Shown one piece after another: positions 17,851-25,756 of a stretch of DNA of 62,737 nt (positions are counted from its first letter, which is position 1; each line of letters starts with the position of its first letter). The notes under the pieces are model-generated. The model saw only the letters and a program-made list of their open reading frames with translations. It did no database searches and was not told the DNA's origin. Source of the DNA: Cytophagaceae bacterium (lineage in GTDB: Bacteria > Bacteroidota > Bacteroidia > Cytophagales > UBA9547); NCBI GenBank assembly GCA_027488865.1, contig JAIYAU010000005.1:1-62737 (forward strand), in the 5' to 3' direction. The translations under genes and the position numbers were made by a program.

Positions 17851-18729
17851 ATGATTCGTGTCCTTTTTAGCTTCTTGTTATGTTTTAGTTATGCTGTTAT
17901 TCTAGCATATCCAGTTAAAATAGGTGACAAATCAAAAGATTTTAACTATGCTACTGTTGATGGCAAAATAGGTAATTTACATTCTTTAAAAGGCAAAATA
18001 GTTTTAATCGATTTTTGGGCATCTTGGTGTGGGCCTTGTAGGGTGTCTAATGAATTGCTCATAGATGTTTACAATCAATATAATAAGTTTGGCTTTGAAG
18101 TATTGAGTATTTCGCTTGATACCAAAAAGGAGTCTTGGAAAAAAGCTATTATTGACGATAATATACCTTGGAAAACACATGGCAACGACCCTAAAGGTTG
18201 GGATTCTCCCATAGCAGTAATGTATGGCGTAGAGCAACTTCCAACGTCCTTTTTGATAAACGAAGAAGGAATAATCATTTCAATAGATCCAGAAGTAGAA
18301 AATCTGCCTAAAATACTAAAAAAACATTTTCAAAGTAATACTAAATGTTATCCTGAAAAAGCAGTAAATACTTTGATTTTAAGTAATGAAGTTAAATATG
18401 AAATTATTGATAAAGACGGGAGCGTGGTATTAAAGGCATCGGGTAGACAAATAAATATAAAAGACTTAAAAGTAGGTAACTACTCCGTAAGGGTAAATAA
18501 CAAGCTTTTGGGTTTTACTAAAGTAAATATCGAAGCAAGCCCTAATTTTTATCCAAAAAGAGCCGAGGACAAACTTACCTTTTCGCAAGAAGTACATTTT
18601 ACAATTTATAACAATATTGGAAACATAGTAAAAAATGGTAAAGGCCATTCAGCCGATGTAAGCGACTTACAAGTGGGTGTATATCATCTGAATATGAACG
18701 GATGGGTTGAAAGTTTCTTAAAAAAGTAG
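17851..18729 (+). CDS. Secreted TlpA-like thioredoxin with two tandem sorting-domain-like repeats
   Basis: A signal peptide (about 1-19) precedes a TlpA/ResA-like thioredoxin domain at about 22-160 with active site WASWCGPC (C60, C63) and the cis-proline in EQLPTSF. The rest is two related repeats of about 60 residues, starting at Y167 and Y234. Both follow a YP-(E/K)-(K/R)-A ... LxxSxEV ... DLxVGxY pattern. That pattern resembles the T9SS type A sorting domain, which normally occurs once at the C-terminus. The second copy ends FLKK like a terminal signal. Probable role: thiol-disulfide exchange outside the cytoplasm or at the cell surface. The sorting-domain reading is inference. Confidence 0.82.
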   Translation: MIRVLFSFLLCFSYAVILAYPVKIGDKSKDFNYATVDGKIGNLHSLKGKIVLIDFWASWCGPCRVSNELLIDVYNQYNKFGFEVLSISLDTKKESWKKAIIDDNIPWKTHGNDPKGWDSPIAVMYGVEQLPTSFLINEEGIIISIDPEVENLPKILKKHFQSNTKCYPEKAVNTLILSNEVKYEIIDKDGSVVLKASGRQINIKDLKVGNYSVRVNNKLLGFTKVNIEASPNFYPKRAEDKLTFSQEVHFTIYNNIGNIVKNGKGHSADVSDLQVGVYHLNMNGWVESFLKK

Positions 18730-18814: not shown

Positions 18815-19951
18815 ATGGATAAATTTGTAGTATCTGCACGAAAATATAGGCCAGCCAACTTTGAAACGGTGGTTGGTCAAGCTCATATTACCACTACACT
18901 TAAAAATGCCATTAAGAATAATCACCTAGCTCAGGCTTTTCTGTTTTGCGGTCCACGAGGAGTAGGTAAAACAACATGTGCTAGAATTTTAGCCAAAACT
19001 ATTAATTGTCAAAATTTAACAGAAGAAGGAGAAGCGTGTAATACTTGTGACTCCTGTAGCGCTTTTAACAATCAAACATCTTTTAATATACATGAGCTAG
19101 ATGCAGCCTCTAATAACTCAGTGGATGACATCAGGAGCTTAGTAGATCAAGTGCGCTTTCCTCCTCAATATGGCAAGTATAAAATCTACATCATAGATGA
19201 GGTGCATATGCTGAGCAATCAGGCATTTAATGCCTTTTTAAAAACACTAGAAGAACCACCATCTTATGCTATTTTTATATTAGCTACTACAGAAAAGCAT
19301 AAAATAATACCTACTATATTATCAAGATGTCAAATTTTTGATTTTAATAGAATTAGTGTTAAAGATATATCGTTGCATTTGGATAAAATAGCTAAGAAAG
19401 AGTCTATTGAGGCTGAGCCAGAAGCACTACATCTAATAAGTCAAAAGGCAGATGGTGCGCTTAGAGATGCGCTATCTATTTTTGACTTGATAGTTACATA
19501 TTCACTTGGTCATAAGGTTACTTATAAGGATACCATAGAAAACCTTCATATTCTCGATTATGACTATTATTTTAAAGTAACTGACGTGCTTTTTGCTGAA
19601 AATATCTCAGAAACCCTAATGGTGTTTAACGAAATATTAAAAAAGGGATTTGACGGGCATAATTTTATAGTCGGTTTATCTGAGCATTTTAGGAATGTAT
19701 TGGTTTGCCGTGACCCTGCCACGGTGTCACTATTGGAAGTGACGGATACAATTCAAAAAAAATATATAGAACAAGCCACAAAGGTGTCAGAGAGTTTTTT
19801 GCTTACGGCCTTACAAATTAGTAATCAATGTGATTTAGGCTATAAAAGCAGCAAAAACCAGCGTTTGCATGTTGAGATTACTCTCATGAAGCTTGCCAAA
19901 ATCAATTCAGCCATATTACTGGCCGCTGAATTAAAAAAAAAAGTAGCATAG
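18815..19951 (+). CDS. dnaX: DNA polymerase III gamma subunit (frame-0 dnaX product)
   Basis: This is the frame-0 product, 378 residues. It is the clamp-loader ATPase, which opens the sliding clamp at primer-template junctions. Visible are the Walker A motif GPRGVGKTT (46-54), a zinc module with cysteines 65, 75, 78 and 81, the Walker B region IIDEVHML, and sensor motif LSRCQIF. The frame ends in LAAELKKKVA and TAG just after the region expected for the oligomerisation (collar) domain, the normal extent of a gamma subunit. The stop lies six bases past an A10 tract, and the -1 frame continues into a tau-like tail. It can be read as gamma from a slippage-regulated gene or as a gene broken by a sequencing error. 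Confidence 0.92.
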   Translation: MDKFVVSARKYRPANFETVVGQAHITTTLKNAIKNNHLAQAFLFCGPRGVGKTTCARILAKTINCQNLTEEGEACNTCDSCSAFNNQTSFNIHELDAASNNSVDDIRSLVDQVRFPPQYGKYKIYIIDEVHMLSNQAFNAFLKTLEEPPSYAIFILATTEKHKIIPTILSRCQIFDFNRISVKDISLHLDKIAKKESIEAEPEALHLISQKADGALRDALSIFDLIVTYSLGHKVTYKDTIENLHILDYDYYFKVTDVLFAENISETLMVFNEILKKGFDGHNFIVGLSEHFRNVLVCRDPATVSLLEVTDTIQKKYIEQATKVSESFLLTALQISNQCDLGYKSSKNQRLHVEITLMKLAKINSAILLAAELKKKVA

Positions 19952-20532
19952 TAAAAGAATCCGTTGAAACCATCCCTGTAGGTAATTATAAAATAGATTT
20001 TGGAAAGGAGAGTCTGCCAAATAAAACAGTAAGGTTTGTTGTAGAAGAGCAACCAACTGTTAAGATACCATCAAAAACGGCTATAGAGGAAGAGGTTAAA
20101 AAGCTTTCGGAAGTAAAAGATGAAGCTAAACCAATAGCTGAGGTAAGTCAGGATGATACTTCAGAACAGTCCATTGACGAAAGCACTTTAAACGTTTTAT
20201 GGCAAACTTTAATAACTACCAAAAAGGACGAAGGTAAAATGACCGAAGCAACTATTTTAGATAGGGTATTTATTATTAAAGATGATAATATCTATTTAAA
20301 GCTTGAAAATCAGTTACTAGTAGATCAATTTAACAAAGTCAAAGGTGAAATTGTTGAATTTTTACGCAACCAACTTAACAATAAAAAGCTTACCATTCAT
20401 GCTGAAATAGTAGAAATGGCTGAGCAAAAGGCCTCCCTTTTTTCTAACTCAGATAAATTTAAATTTTTGGCAGAGAAATACCCAATTTTAGAAGACCTAA
20501 GAAAAAAACTGGGTTTGGAGTTTGATTATTAA
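18815..20532 (+). CDS. dnaX: DNA polymerase III tau subunit (dnaX read through a -1 shift)
   Basis: If the frame shifts by -1 within the A10 tract at 19933-19942, reading continues without a stop to TAA at 20530-20532, giving a predicted 572-residue tau. The added tail starts SSIVKESVETIPVG. It has an acidic, low-complexity linker (KKLSEVKDEAKPIAEVSQDD), then a folded-looking end (STLNVLWQTLIT, DNIYLKLENQLLVDQFN, FLAEKYPILEDLRKKLGLEF). That layout fits a tau tail, which contacts the polymerase and helicase. The -1 frame is open for about 590 bases, with protein-like composition. Slippage may be transcriptional (an added A) or ribosomal; no clear downstream stem-loop is seen, which favours transcription. 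The gene meets the LytTR gene tail to tail with a 4-base overlap. Confidence 0.8.
19933..19942 (+). promoter_or_regulatory. A10 slippage site in dnaX
   Basis: Ten consecutive A, read in frame 0 as TTA AAA AAA AAA GTA GCA TAG. The context contains two overlapping A_AAA_AAA slippery heptamers, with the frame-0 stop six bases downstream. Thermus dnaX uses a similar A-run for transcriptional slippage, and E. coli dnaX uses A_AAA_AAG ribosomal frameshifting. Confidence 0.75.
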
Positions 20533-21278
20533 TAATGACCTATTTTTATTAAAAAAGACTCCTTTTTACGTTTGGAAACATCAAGGTTAATGCCTGTACT
20601 CAAGGTCACAAAACCACCTTCTCCCCTGGTGTATTTAACAATTTCTTTAAGATTGACTAAATATGAATGGTGGATTCTAAAAAACTGGTGGTTGGCCAAA
20701 AGATTTTCATATTCTTTTAATGTTTTGGAAACCACATGTTTTTTGTCATGTCTTAGATAAAAAGTGGTATAGTTGCCTGAAGCTTCACAATAAATTATAT
20801 CTGCACATTTTACAAACGAAAGGCCTTCCAAAGTTGGGATGGCAAGTTTATAATCATCATAATTATTGGCTTTCATATTTTCGATAAGTGTGTTAAACTT
20901 ACCAAAAAGGTTATCGTGATAACGCTTTTTTTCTACCCTGTCAATCGCCGACTTTAGGTCATTAATGTCTATCGGCTTGAGTAAATAGTCTACTGCTGAA
21001 AATTTAATGGCAGTGATGGCATACTCTGAATGTGCCGTAGTAAAAATAACCTCAAATGAAATTTCTTTAATTTTATTTAAGAGATCAAACCCAGTTTCTT
21101 TATGCATCTGAATATCAAGAAACACCAAATCAGGATCGGTTTGGGCTATTAAGTCGATACCTTCCTGTACACTGCCAGCTAAGCCTAGTATTTTTACATT
21201 TGTACAAAAATCTTCTATTAAGATTTTAAGGTTTTCACGACTTTTAGCTTCATCGTCTACAATAATAGCTTTTAGCAT
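20529..21278 (-). CDS. LytTR-family response regulator
   Basis: The N-terminal receiver domain (1 to about 120) has acidic residues D8 and D9, phosphoacceptor D55 in LVFLDIQM, the threonine in IFTTAH and the lysine in LLKPID. The C-terminal LytTR DNA-binding domain (about 145-249) includes the typical FFRIHHSYLVNLK segment. LytTR regulators bind paired direct repeats upstream of target genes. The gene is 14 bases downstream of the large LytS-type kinase gene on the same strand, so the two form a cognate pair. The stop codon overlaps the dnaX stop by four bases in convergent orientation, with no terminator between. Confidence 0.93.
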   Translation of the reverse strand: MLKAIIVDDEAKSRENLKILIEDFCTNVKILGLAGSVQEGIDLIAQTDPDLVFLDIQMHKETGFDLLNKIKEISFEVIFTTAHSEYAITAIKFSAVDYLLKPIDINDLKSAIDRVEKKRYHDNLFGKFNTLIENMKANNYDDYKLAIPTLEGLSFVKCADIIYCEASGNYTTFYLRHDKKHVVSKTLKEYENLLANHQFFRIHHSYLVNLKEIVKYTRGEGGFVTLSTGINLDVSKRKKESFLIKIGHY

Positions 21279-21292
21279 TTCTTAGTAATTTT

Positions 21293-24200
21293 TTAATTAA
21301 TAATTCGTATCACAATATCGTTTCTAGTGCCTATAGGAGTTCCTTGTTCATCATAGAGATCAATTATATTCACCGATACGTCATCTATTTTGTTAATAAT
21401 TTTTAGTCTCTCTTCAGTGACCTTCATCCCAATAGATTTATGGTCTATGCCATGTTTTAAACCTGAGGCAGCCTCTCTACCAATTCCATTGTCTTCGATG
21501 GTACAAAGTAATAAATCGTCTTTTTGGATGATTTTAACCTTCAATACTCCTTGTCCTCTATCTTTATTAAGTAACCCGTGAATCACCGAATTTTCTACAT
21601 AGGGTTGAAGTACCAACGACGGCACCTCTACTTCGTCGGTATTTAATTCTGCTGAGATGTCAAATATAACAGCAAATTTATTATCAAATCGAAGATTTTC
21701 TAATTCTACATAATATTTTAGTATACTTAGCTCATCAGTTAATGAAATCTTTATCGTAATTGAGCTTTCTAGAATTTTCCTAACCAATTTAGAAAATAAG
21801 GATAAATAAGTTAATGCTAGTTCGCGTTCATTTTTTGCAATAAAATATTGAATCGAATTGAGGGAATTAAATAAGAAATGGGGGTTCATAACCGACCTTA
21901 ATGCCATCATTCTATATTCCGCAATTTTTTTGGTAGTTTCAATGAGTTCTTGATGCTTTAATTCGAGTTCTTTCTCTTTATGAACCCCTTCTGATACATC
22001 GATACCAAGATATATTACAGTCTTAAGATTTCTAGCATAATCAAAAACAGGCAAAAATACTGCGTCAAAATATTTTTGTATAGGTTCATTTTCGTGATTC
22101 TTGGTAGCAAGTTTTAACCGATCAAACCGGAGCTTCTCTCCTTTAAAGGCCAATACCAGTTTTGCTCGTAAATCTTGTGAATAATGTTCTTCATCATTAA
22201 AAATATTGTAAATAGCATTTAGGTTATTTGCCTCTATTCCTAAAAATTTCCTTTGTACATGATTCATTCTCAGAGAATAACCAACATTGTCATACATTTG
22301 AAAAGCAACAGGCAGGTTTTCAATAATAGCCTCTAAGAGTTCTTCATTCTCCTGTACTTTTAGTTCGGTTATTTTGTTGTCTGTAATGTCTTGCGTGGTG
22401 CCTCTTAGCTTCACCAAGTTATTATTTTGGTCATAAACGGGGATTCCTATTATTCGAACCCATTTGTTTGCACCTTTTTCAGTGGTAATGAAACATTCAT
22501 GTTTCCATTTGTTTCCAGTTAAAATGGCTTGATGTGCTAGTCGGTCAAGGTATTCTTGATTTTCTTTTCCTAATAACAAATAATTTGATTCAAACGAAGG
22601 GGTATAACTAGTTTCTAGGTCGTGAATTACATACATTTCATCAGACCAAATAATTTTGGCGGTTTTAATATCAAATTCCCAACAGCCTATTTTAGCTATT
22701 TTTTGAGATTCCCTCAGCCGTTCTTCACTCTCGTAAATGTTTTTAGACACTAATATAGATTCCGTAATATCCCTAGCTCTCACCAAAATTCCAGATATTA
22801 CACCTTCTTCAAATATCGGACTTAAATAATATTCGCCAAAGTGAACGGTTCCATTGATTTCGGTTATTTCTTTGGTGCTCACAACACCTTCTCCTGTTGA
22901 GATAACAAGCTGGCAAAGATTAAGGTAATCATCAATAAAATCTTGATTAGGTAAAAAATCAATAACACTCTTGCCAATTTCCATGACCTTGCCAAACGTG
23001 TTTTTCATCATCATTTGGTGATATTCATTACAAAACAAAATTTTATTGTCTAAATCCGTAGCCCAATAGCCTATTTTACCTGTATTTAAAATGCTGTATT
23101 GATACGCGTAAGATCGTTTCAAGTGGTCTTCTGTTTTCTTTCTTTCAGATATATCTAGGCAGGTGATAATAAGGGTATATTGATGTCTATATCTTACGAA
23201 CGATTTACTTAAATTAACAAATTTATGATTCCCTTTGGCAGTAATTAGTTGAATATCAACATTATTGTTGGATTTGTCTGTCTTAGCGATCAAAAACGTA
23301 TCGAAAACACCTTTGTACTCAGTATGAACAAAATCATTAAATGATAACTGACCTTTATAGTCCTTGTCTAATTCTAAAAGCTCTAATAAGGTAACATTAT
23401 ATAAAAGTACCTGGGTGCTTTGTCCTAAAAACAAACCAATAGGTAAAGAGTCGAAAACTTGACGAATATTTGATTCGCTTTCTTGAAGCAATTTTTCCTT
23501 TTGGATTCGTTCGGTAATATCACGGATAGTAATAATCTTTATTTCTTGTAGTTGAAATTGAAATGATCTACTTCTAATTTCTCCATAAAACAATTTTCCA
23601 AGTTTTGTAACAAAGGTTATTTCTGTAGGTTCATTTACCTCCTCTGTAACCAATTGATTAAAATATGCACGTTGAGATGGCACTACTAAGTTGAAGAGTT
23701 GAATCGATTTTAGCTCGTCAATATCACATTCCAAAAGTTGAATAGCTGTGTTATTGGCTTCAATGGTAACCCCATTTTGAACAAGTAAAACAGCCTCGAA
23801 AGTAGCTTCACTTAGGACTTTAGCCTTATATTCACTTTCATCCAATAATTTATTTTTTTCATAAAGGGCGACATTGGACTTTTGAAGGTACTCTTCATTT
23901 TTAGCCAAAGTGTGATTTAGTTGTTGTAGTTCAATTATAGAATGTTCTATCTTTTGTTGATCTATTATTTCTTGGGTAATATCCTCGCCCATCAATAAGT
24001 TTAGCCCATTTGACAATCTAATTTGAACCCAATTGGTAATCTTTTTTTGTTGCTTTTTATCTAAAAGTTCTACTTCTTTCCAATAAAGCCCTAGTTCTGG
24101 AAGTTCACTCTGAAATACCTGTGTCAAGTTGAATACTTCGTTCTCTTTATAGCCGAGTACTTTGCTAAAGTGCTTGTTAAGCCTTAATATTTCGCCTTTG

Positions 24201-25756
24201 GAATTTACTAAAATTAAAATAACTGGTATGTTGTCATAGAGGTTTTCAAACAGTTCATTTTGTTGTTTTAAAGTATTTTGTATGGTTCTTGACTCTTGTT
24301 CTCGTGTTATAAGCTCCTTTTCATACAGTTTTCTTGCCGAAATGTCAATTACCGTAGCGCAAAGAACAGATTTGCCTTTGTACATTATAGCCTTGCAAGA
24401 TATTGACACATCAAGGTAATTCCCATCACTTTTTATAAGAATAATGTCTATATTTTGATGGGTGTTTTTTGTGAAAAATAAATTGTTTACGACATCTAGG
24501 TGTTCTGGTTGAATAATCGTTTCTACATTTAACCCCTTTAACTCAACGTTTTCATAACCAATCATCTCTTTCATGGCCTCGTTGGTATAAATTACCATCC
24601 CCTTGTGAATTAATACGATGCCAACAGCAGCATTTTCAAGCAATTGTTCTAGCGCATTTTCACTATCTAATAGCTTATTTTCGGTTAAGATTAAATCATT
24701 AATGTCTATATTAATTCCTTCTAATGAAACGACATTTCCCTCCTGATCCAATTTGCATTTACCTTTGGCCAAAAACCAACGGTAAGTATTAGATTTTAAT
24801 TGTTTTTGTCTAAGTCTACAAGAAAACTCTGTTTTTGAAAAAATTGCCTGAGCTACATGTTGCTGCAGCACCACCACATCATCTTGGTGTAACAGACTAT
24901 AGTATTCTTCAAGAGGTGGTACAGTGTCTAAGGAAACGTCCATTTCGAATGAAAGAAATACTTGATCATCCCAGGTGATTGTGTTATTCACAACATCTAA
25001 GCTCCAAGCACCAAGTTTGCCGTATTTCTTAGCTTGAATTAACCTATCTTGGTGTTGGGTTAATTCAAGATTTTGAGCTGTTATTTTTTCTAATAAATGG
25101 TTGTTAACAGTTTCAAGTTCTATTTTTTGTTTTTGTAACTCAAATACCAGCAATTGGTTATCTTGTTGTTCTTGCTGCTTATTGAGTGCTATATAATAAT
25201 ATAAATTAATGGAAGTGCCTACTAGACTCAAGGTCATGTTTACTAAACGAGCTTGCAAAACAAAATCAGTTGAATAGTTAGTGAGTTCACTTAATTGGGT
25301 CCAGTCAAGTGTTTCAATTATCAAAATGGTGCTTATGGGAATTAAAAGACCAAGGATAAACTTAAGTTTAGTTTCAGCTTCAAATGTTAATAGCGATAGG
25401 ATAATCATAGGAAAATAATAAAAATATTCTCCAGTAGCATTTTCGAATTTTGAACATCTTAAAAACATGATAAATGCAAAGGAAATAGCCAATAAATATC
25501 TTGCTATTAGGTACCTTCCATTTTTATTTAATACTAACACAATTAAGGGCGCAATCAAACTAATGCCCAACCTAGTAAAGGAAGTTACTGTATTATACCG
25601 CTCTTGAATTAACAATAGCTGCATCAGGTGAACTATCAGTATTGAAATAGCTACGGCATTGGTTAATTTAATTATTTTAATTAGACTTTTAGGAGTAGTG
25701 TTAAAAACACCAATCTGAGTGATAAAAGTAAAAAACTGATTAAGGCTATTTTTCAT
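21293..25756 (-). CDS. LytS-type multi-PAS membrane sensor histidine kinase
   Basis: The 1487-residue protein begins with about five to six membrane helices (residues 20-205), then a coiled segment, then roughly eight PAS domains in series between about 240 and 1250. The catalytic end is a His_kinase (PF06580-type) module with phosphoacceptor H1293 in MNPHFLFNSLNSI, and an ATPase domain with LQPYVENSVIHG and EDNGIGREA. This transmitter class pairs with LytTR regulators, and the LytTR gene follows 14 bases downstream. PAS domains can bind haem, flavin or small molecules; which ones these bind is not visible. It lies downstream of aroA and yjjG on the same strand and may share their transcript. 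Confidence 0.93.
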   Translation of the reverse strand: MKNSLNQFFTFITQIGVFNTTPKSLIKIIKLTNAVAISILIVHLMQLLLIQERYNTVTSFTRLGISLIAPLIVLVLNKNGRYLIARYLLAISFAFIMFLRCSKFENATGEYFYYFPMIILSLLTFEAETKLKFILGLLIPISTILIIETLDWTQLSELTNYSTDFVLQARLVNMTLSLVGTSINLYYYIALNKQQEQQDNQLLVFELQKQKIELETVNNHLLEKITAQNLELTQHQDRLIQAKKYGKLGAWSLDVVNNTITWDDQVFLSFEMDVSLDTVPPLEEYYSLLHQDDVVVLQQHVAQAIFSKTEFSCRLRQKQLKSNTYRWFLAKGKCKLDQEGNVVSLEGINIDINDLILTENKLLDSENALEQLLENAAVGIVLIHKGMVIYTNEAMKEMIGYENVELKGLNVETIIQPEHLDVVNNLFFTKNTHQNIDIILIKSDGNYLDVSISCKAIMYKGKSVLCATVIDISARKLYEKELITREQESRTIQNTLKQQNELFENLYDNIPVILILVNSKGEILRLNKHFSKVLGYKENEVFNLTQVFQSELPELGLYWKEVELLDKKQQKKITNWVQIRLSNGLNLLMGEDITQEIIDQQKIEHSIIELQQLNHTLAKNEEYLQKSNVALYEKNKLLDESEYKAKVLSEATFEAVLLVQNGVTIEANNTAIQLLECDIDELKSIQLFNLVVPSQRAYFNQLVTEEVNEPTEITFVTKLGKLFYGEIRSRSFQFQLQEIKIITIRDITERIQKEKLLQESESNIRQVFDSLPIGLFLGQSTQVLLYNVTLLELLELDKDYKGQLSFNDFVHTEYKGVFDTFLIAKTDKSNNNVDIQLITAKGNHKFVNLSKSFVRYRHQYTLIITCLDISERKKTEDHLKRSYAYQYSILNTGKIGYWATDLDNKILFCNEYHQMMMKNTFGKVMEIGKSVIDFLPNQDFIDDYLNLCQLVISTGEGVVSTKEITEINGTVHFGEYYLSPIFEEGVISGILVRARDITESILVSKNIYESEERLRESQKIAKIGCWEFDIKTAKIIWSDEMYVIHDLETSYTPSFESNYLLLGKENQEYLDRLAHQAILTGNKWKHECFITTEKGANKWVRIIGIPVYDQNNNLVKLRGTTQDITDNKITELKVQENEELLEAIIENLPVAFQMYDNVGYSLRMNHVQRKFLGIEANNLNAIYNIFNDEEHYSQDLRAKLVLAFKGEKLRFDRLKLATKNHENEPIQKYFDAVFLPVFDYARNLKTVIYLGIDVSEGVHKEKELELKHQELIETTKKIAEYRMMALRSVMNPHFLFNSLNSIQYFIAKNERELALTYLSLFSKLVRKILESSITIKISLTDELSILKYYVELENLRFDNKFAVIFDISAELNTDEVEVPSLVLQPYVENSVIHGLLNKDRGQGVLKVKIIQKDDLLLCTIEDNGIGREAASGLKHGIDHKSIGMKVTEERLKIINKIDDVSVNIIDLYDEQGTPIGTRNDIVIRIIN

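Follow-up and report, generated by a model that had tools for sequence, protein, structure and literature searches.

The dnaX gene is a textbook case of the same two products being reached by different decoding tricks. The linker and C-terminal domain of E. coli tau bind the helicase and the polymerase. The E. coli gene is reported to use a programmed −1 ribosomal frameshift (PMC5009743, PMC3711429), and the Thermus thermophilus gene to use transcriptional slippage on a run of nine A (PMC1088944, PMC5009743), with conserved run length serving as an argument for slippage (PMC1088944). According to the review PMC5009743, a smaller number of bacteria seem to make tau as the frameshifted product, and E. 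coli-like signals may be present in the dnaX of Chlorobium phaeobacteroides. A two-ORF form of the gene was described with GeneTack by Antonov et al. in 2013 (PMC3711429): 17 genes from 12 genera, all shifted to −1 and nine of them with exactly ten A, for which that paper proposes transcriptional slippage. Among the literature titles and abstracts searched, no dnaX slippage in Bacteroidota appeared besides that paper and the review.

Here we describe a dnaX locus in the window, by which we mean the whole stretch of 62,737 nt analysed (Cytophagaceae bacterium, assembly GCA_027488865.1, contig JAIYAU010000005.1). Its features are as follows.

18815..19951, plus strand: frame-0 ORF of dnaX, the gamma subunit, AAA+ clamp-loader ATPase part, 378 aa (NCBIfam, Pfam)
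19933..19942, plus strand: putative A10 slippage tract, the last base of TTA followed by AAA AAA AAA (direct sequence reading, conservation in the survey)
19944..19946, plus strand: TAG closing the +1 frame directly 3' of the A10 run (sequence)
19949..19951, plus strand: TAG, the frame-0 stop and end of gamma (sequence)
19936..20532, plus strand: −1 frame ORF, predicted tau-specific tail with a linker and a folded C-terminal domain, ending in TAA at 20530–20532 (PRK14971)
20167..20514, plus strand: folded C-terminal domain of tau, presumably polymerase-binding (AlphaFold2 model)

Frame 0 starts with the ATG at 18815, and the end of gamma reads GAA TTA AAA AAA AAA GTA GCA TAG, with exactly ten A in the run (pattern BAAAAAAAAAAB). 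An earlier note on this DNA had read the gene as stopping in frame 0 after 378 codons, six bases past the ten A, with an open −1 frame behind the run that carries the tail of tau. Direct reading placed the stop exactly there, and the −1 frame does stay open from the A10 run to its TAA, a length of 198 residues counted from 19936. By arithmetic, a tau made by slippage would have 376 + 196 = 572 aa; in the sister genus g6, the unbroken ORF has 562 aa. The frame-0 ORF matched the NCBIfam models PRK14971 (E 2.2e-223) and TIGR02397 dnaX_nterm (E 3.8e-129) and the Pfam families DNA_pol3_delta2, DNAX_ATPase_lid and DNA_pol3_gamma3; judged by these matches, the N-terminal part is unquestionably DnaX.

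Counting both strands, the 4,326,669-base genome has 13 runs of exactly ten A, of which three are sense-strand runs inside a long open frame and past its first start codon. One of the three is dnaX (L135). The other two (L137 and L139, each at 1502-1511) fall inside open frames of 606 and 388 codons and are possible further slippage sites. Immediately 5' of dnaX, at 17851–18729, lies a gene for a thioredoxin-like protein whose Por_Secre_tail domain is a secretion sorting signal; on the minus strand, 20529–25756 holds a LytTR response regulator adjoining a 1487-aa ORF that is probably a PAS-rich histidine kinase (the kinase part by eye).

Compared with the described systems, the locus is closest to the type of PMC3711429, in which a gamma ORF and a −1 tau ORF meet at a poly-A run of about ten. 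Like Thermus dnaX as reported, it has a long A-run (at least nine) at the boundary between gamma and tau, closely followed by stops in the other frames. Unlike in Thermus, where tau is described as the unslipped product, the unslipped product of the window would be gamma. The Thermus-type arrangement, with tau in frame 0, is found in genus g6 of the window's own family and in 130 of the 240 surveyed genes that have at least nine A. As in published accounts of E. coli, two clamp-loader subunits would come from one gene through a −1 shift on an A-rich site. Unlike in those accounts, the window contains no in-frame A_AAA_AAG at the slip site, no stem-loop and no SD-like stimulator, and the roles of the frames are reversed. 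The lack of a stem-loop, which the earlier note had also remarked on, was borne out by folding: the 70 nt after the run reach −3.9 kcal/mol (z +1.44), and 184 of 200 shuffled sequences fold equally well or better. By eye, the upstream 30 nt hold no GGAG-like stretch. An Rfam scan of seven loci (E ≤ 5) returned eight weak matches, none of them a frameshift element and all below the curators' thresholds.

We then looked at the −1 tail. Set against Bacteroidota DnaX, it matched positions 457–613 of 614 in PRK14971 (E 3.3e-19), in agreement with the earlier note; its score is under the whole-protein cut-off of that model because the tail is only part of the protein. Pfam gave no match for the −1 frame product. 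Modelled with AlphaFold2, the last 165 residues of the tail form a compact domain (mean pLDDT 83.9), with blocks at pLDDT 94–98 for residues 51–120, 86 and 69 for 121–140 and 93–94 for 141–160, and with the order helix-helix-strand-strand-helix-strand-helix-helix. The structure alignment comprised 57 of the 75 named tails. Fold searches with the model returned KH-like neighbours and no clear tau match, a negative that does not count against tau. The neighbours were 4tps_D (Z 8.2), 2e0g (Z 7.8) and DciA (Z 7.7), where by the structure-comparison tool's own note a Z under about 8 possibly reflects just a common arrangement; 4tps_D comes from an entry that pairs SirA with DnaA domain I, and 2e0g is the N-terminal domain of DnaA. 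Domain V of E. coli tau, itself described as similar to DnaA domain I, was a weak match (2AYA, Foldseek rank 46, E 1.1). The predicted identity of the window's tail as tau rests on the profile match.

Substitution patterns indicate that the tails of close split pairs are under purifying selection (dN 0.029 and dS 0.66 for L025/L028; dN 0.078 and dS 2.61 for L023/L035). Three split pairs of genus g5 are looser, with tail pN/pS of 0.54–0.67, and the nearest tail to that of the window, L014, is 29% identical, with saturated dS and pN/pS of 0.66. The demonstrated strong constraint therefore concerns the closer split pairs rather than the window's own tail.

To place the A-run in its lineage, we compared dnaX genes across the family, the order and the phylum. 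In the family, where nine of ten genomes were matched and the window's genus is a single genome of the collection, A10 stands at the identical codon position in all nine, which makes an assembly accident unlikely. Seven of these are split, so that the two-ORF form, of the type described in PMC3711429, is conserved between genera, and the other two have a single 562-aa ORF. Both single-ORF genomes belong to genus g6, and their −1 frame meets a TGA at the second codon. The same two genes (L015, L016) carry two A10 tracts 53 nt apart, at nt 1127 and 1180.

The wider survey joined 80 named loci (the best 80 of 593 confirmed stretches), 90 order loci (the family genomes, the best-scoring 30 loci and others chosen for spread among those listed) and 136 genomes of an evenly drawn phylum sample (136 matched of 138, all fetched), in total 306 loci with 304 distinct genes, 295 of which were kept as scoreable to the end of tau. 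Loci L332–L379 lie outside the 304-gene set and were read separately. A run of A9 to A13 stands at the gamma/tau boundary in 240 of the 304 genes: A9 in 45, A10 in 177, A11 in 15, A12 in two and A13 in one. Shorter runs are A7 or A8 in eight genes, A6 in five and A5 in 11, and 40 genes have no run of at least five. By set, A9–A13 is present in 79 of 90 order loci, 100 of 136 genomes of the phylum sample and 63 of 80 named loci; within the phylum sample it is found in 33 of 34 genomes of the window's class and in 67 of the 102 others.

Fifteen of the 17 named genes without the run have titles of Bacteroidales or of families that we count to Bacteroidales (Bacteroides, Prevotella). Named Bacteroidales loci such as L078, L087, L089, L096, L103, L106, L113 and L127, several of them from animal gut by their titles, have a single ORF without the run. 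In such Bacteroidales, gamma would be either absent or produced in another way. One Bacteroidales MAG (L104) has a dnaX split into +1 without a long A-run, through an error or another device; it was excluded from the counts of runs of at least nine A. A gene with A10 at nt 1360, outside the boundary interval (L062), was counted as having no run.

The runs are concentrated at the boundary. In the 295 genes, 238 runs of at least nine A fall inside the 185-nt boundary interval and four in the remaining 470,046 nt; two genes have two such runs each at the boundary. In the 25 genes that have at least nine A and a locus GC of at least 55%, AAA makes up 23% of the Lys codons, so that three AAA in a row would be expected at p ~0.026, which speaks against codon bias as the source of the runs.

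The frame of tau varies among the 240 genes with at least nine A: it is frame 0 in 130 and shifted in 110, to −1 in 107 (three of them ending at a contig end) and to +1 in three. Both non-tau frames are closed within ten codons after the run in 218 of the 236 genes that could be followed to their end. Divided by state, this holds for 114 of 130 single-ORF genes and 104 of 106 split genes, compared with 27% and 26% at control positions farther down these tails. The −1 frame of single-ORF genes closes after a median of 1.0 codon (within five codons in 126 of 130) and the +1 frame after a median of 4.7 (within ten in 114 of 130, control 48%). This earlier closure of the −1 frame would fit a slip that most often inserts one A. 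In family f19, all 35 sampled genes are split. The best explanation for these patterns is that the A-run and its nearby stops are kept by selection and that the frame holding tau is exchangeable.

We therefore read the locus as one dnaX gene that would yield two clamp-loader subunits through RNA polymerase slipping on A10, with a probability of roughly 0.77. Two products by slippage are very likely, and a transcriptional mechanism, with RNA polymerase rather than the ribosome slipping, is likely. Unslipped mRNA with ten A would give gamma of 378 aa; mRNA with one extra A, or two fewer, would enter the tail frame and give tau of about 572 aa; and mRNA in the third frame would stop at the TAG at 19944, yielding another gamma-like product. 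The slippage site would be a lineage-wide device. The sequences show its design and conservation, the purifying selection on −1-frame tails of related split genes, the double stops and the lack of structure behind the window's run, whereas the slip itself, its transcriptional nature, its ratio and the functions of both products are inferred. The proposal of the earlier note, two products by A10 slippage that is likely transcriptional, thus stands as the best-supported reading, and the match that it drew to the Thermus and E. coli designs has to be inverted, since gamma is the product made without a slip.

Both long-run and short-run genes occur in one family, f12, which has Rufibacter and Hymenobacter as its closest named loci. 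Four of its six sampled genera have A10 (g17, g82, g88 and g96). Genus g73 has A7 in all 21 dnaX genes fetched. Across these 21 loci (L294:1101-1197 and 20 more, alignment A3) the A7 dnaX is accompanied by a conserved H-type pseudoknot, and a GGAAGGAG-like sequence stands upstream in many. The pseudoknot begins 5 nt past the run and has the interleaved form GGUAG...GGCACC...CUACC...GGUGCC. Its pairing holds in 99.6% of alignment cells, compared with 23–56% for slid controls, and L297 breaks one pair. Covariation was absent in this alignment, no pair having changed on both sides in a structure that is too conserved. Third codon positions, in turn, are conserved at 0.97 in the eight paired columns and at 0.73 in eight unpaired ones. 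A pattern built from the 21 genes matched 41 of the 50 g73 genomes, and the reversed pattern matched none; as the 41 include the 21 source genomes, 20 of the 29 others match. From this sequence evidence, a ribosomal frameshift probably replaces the A10 device in g73.

In genus g118, dnaX is split in both genomes seen (L354, L358), at CAA AAA AAG or GCA AAA AAG, and the −1 frame that holds tau runs on for 230 and 245 codons. About 1130 nt into the gene, the two loci have A_AAA_AAG followed by a shared 8-bp hairpin, GCCGGUAG/CUGCCGGC, with an SD-like sequence upstream (by eye). The ribosomal −1 shift predicted here would yield tau, the inverse of E. coli dnaX. Both genera belong to the window's order and have an orthologous dnaX with the same boundary, and the run is cut to A7 with a pseudoknot in g73 or to A6 with a hairpin in g118. 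Since four of the six sampled genera of the family have A10, the short runs would seem to derive from A10 ancestors.

The strongest alternative is that the ribosome, not the polymerase, slips: programmed −1 frameshifting on the A_AAA_AAA heptamer within A10 would yield tau, with the roles of E. coli dnaX reversed. We regard this as unlikely, though several observations speak for it. The heptamer is present, and the −1 direction fits the window and 107 of the 110 shifted genes. In published reporter cassettes of another gene in E. coli, runs of 11, 9 and 7 As shifted 63, 40 and 10%, with ribosome and polymerase not separated (PMC3711429). SD-like sequence upstream of runs of at least nine A in Bacteroidia is somewhat stronger than in controls (mean rank 0.39 in single-ORF and 0.29 in split genes), a bias that could hint at a ribosomal contribution. 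Bacteroidia ribosomes are, however, reported not to recognise SD sequences (PMC9976891) and may thus have less recourse to an SD-assisted shift; the difficulty of using such an E. coli-style shift could also be the reason why the polymerase does the slipping.

Folding gives evidence on both sides. In the 60 nt past the run, four groups of genes with at least nine A have mean ranks of 0.46, 0.61, 0.54 and 0.57 against control windows of the same gene, where 0.5 means equal, and so show no difference. Stronger folding than in the own gene was seen in A7 genes of g73 (rank 0.06, five genes) and in the A6G gene L308 (rank 0.00). Eighteen A10 genes of family f12 also fold downstream more than their own gene does (rank 0.23), with a mean of −20.1 kcal/mol compared with −20.9 in g73. 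This similarity weakens the contrast within the family and slightly lowers our confidence in transcription. Against dinucleotide shuffles, z is −0.48 for the A10 genes of f12, −1.74 for g73 and −2.14 for g118; with similar energies and differing z, it is conserved stimulators, rather than folding energy as such, that mark the short-run genera.

Other features of the A10 form count against the ribosome. A heptamer leaves unexplained why runs are 9–13 and hardly ever 7–8 long. The window's run has no structure on its 3' side, and the conserved pseudoknot and hairpin sit in the two short-run genera. A −1 shift would never use the third frame, yet this frame too closes within ten codons in most single-ORF genes, and tau lies in +1 in three of the long-run genes. 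Run-length preference, stops in both directions and stimulators at the short runs together favour transcription for the A10 form.

On a FastTree tree of gamma proteins, a single-gene tree with L201 left out, the fewest changes between the single-ORF and split states number 30, falling to 18 with branches of support at least 90 and 15 with support at least 95; shuffled labels gave a mean of 79 and a minimum of 67. The state is thus inherited yet flips often (15–30 changes compared with 79). Both states occur within one genus in four genera. In two near-identical pairs, a flip goes with a change of one A: L288 (A11) and L282 (A10), and L264 (A9) and L256 (A10). In either pair the difference may be a sequencing error. 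L288, which is split, shares its genus with three single-ORF A10 genes (L282, L296 and L350).

Drawing these lines together, we consider it probable that A9–A13 is an old slip site of Bacteroidota and their relatives. Polymerase slippage there would feed all three frames, so that single-base changes in the run or the linker would swap the templated subunit and the frame of tau would be nearly irrelevant. Such swaps would have happened at least 15–30 times on the gene tree, and one family would have turned to ribosomal frameshifting, with a pseudoknot and an unbroken ORF in g73 and a hairpin and a split ORF in g118.

The other alternatives fare far worse than the ribosomal one. It is very improbable that the split comes from a homopolymer miscount in sequencing or assembly, with A11 and one tau ORF in the actual genome: homopolymers are error-prone, and the split A11 gene above differs from its three A10 relatives by one A, but a shifted tau in 110 of 240 genes comes from many assemblies, family f19 is split throughout its sample, and an error would not arrange the frame-0 and +1 stops right behind the run. 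Slightly less probable still is a tail made as an independent protein from a separate start, by coupling or re-initiation after the gamma stop. The tail is its own ORF past the stop and has an ATG at 20239. That codon is, however, the first ATG, GTG or TTG of the −1 open frame (ORF list), which leaves no separate start near the gamma stop. In the survey, only nine of 107 split genes have a tau-frame start codon (ATG, GTG or TTG) no further than 30 nt from the gamma stop, two of these being ATG, and the two parts are fused in single-ORF relatives. As for a frameshift mutation or phase variation, in which the genomic run mutates and cells toggle tau, the one-base differences in the two close pairs L288/L282 and L264/L256 suggest that replication slippage may occur, but dnaX is a core replication gene, the copy in the window is the sole full-length match in its genome, the sampled f19 genes are all split and the tails of close split pairs are under apparent purifying selection, so that we give this reading hardly any weight. 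A pseudogene reading of split dnaX was considered and set aside.

The two-ORF A10 dnaX as such was already described in 2013 (PMC3711429). Repeated swapping and the pseudoknot branch go further: split and unbroken genes appear as alternative states of a single widespread site, which has swapped repeatedly between them and has stops in both non-tau frames. Widespread frame swapping and the pseudoknot form were not found in PMC3711429 (its species-list supplement aside), PMC5009743 or PMC1088944.

For annotation, these comparisons carry a warning: a dnaX that seems frameshifted at about 360–400 codons behind a long A-run is usually intact in this group. For the biology of the lineage, one clade appears to show both decoding tricks and both frame arrangements, so that sister strains offer a way to test which of the two, polymerase or ribosome, does the slipping and whether gamma is needed at all. 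The short-run genera with a pseudoknot or hairpin could serve to test the idea based on SD recognition.
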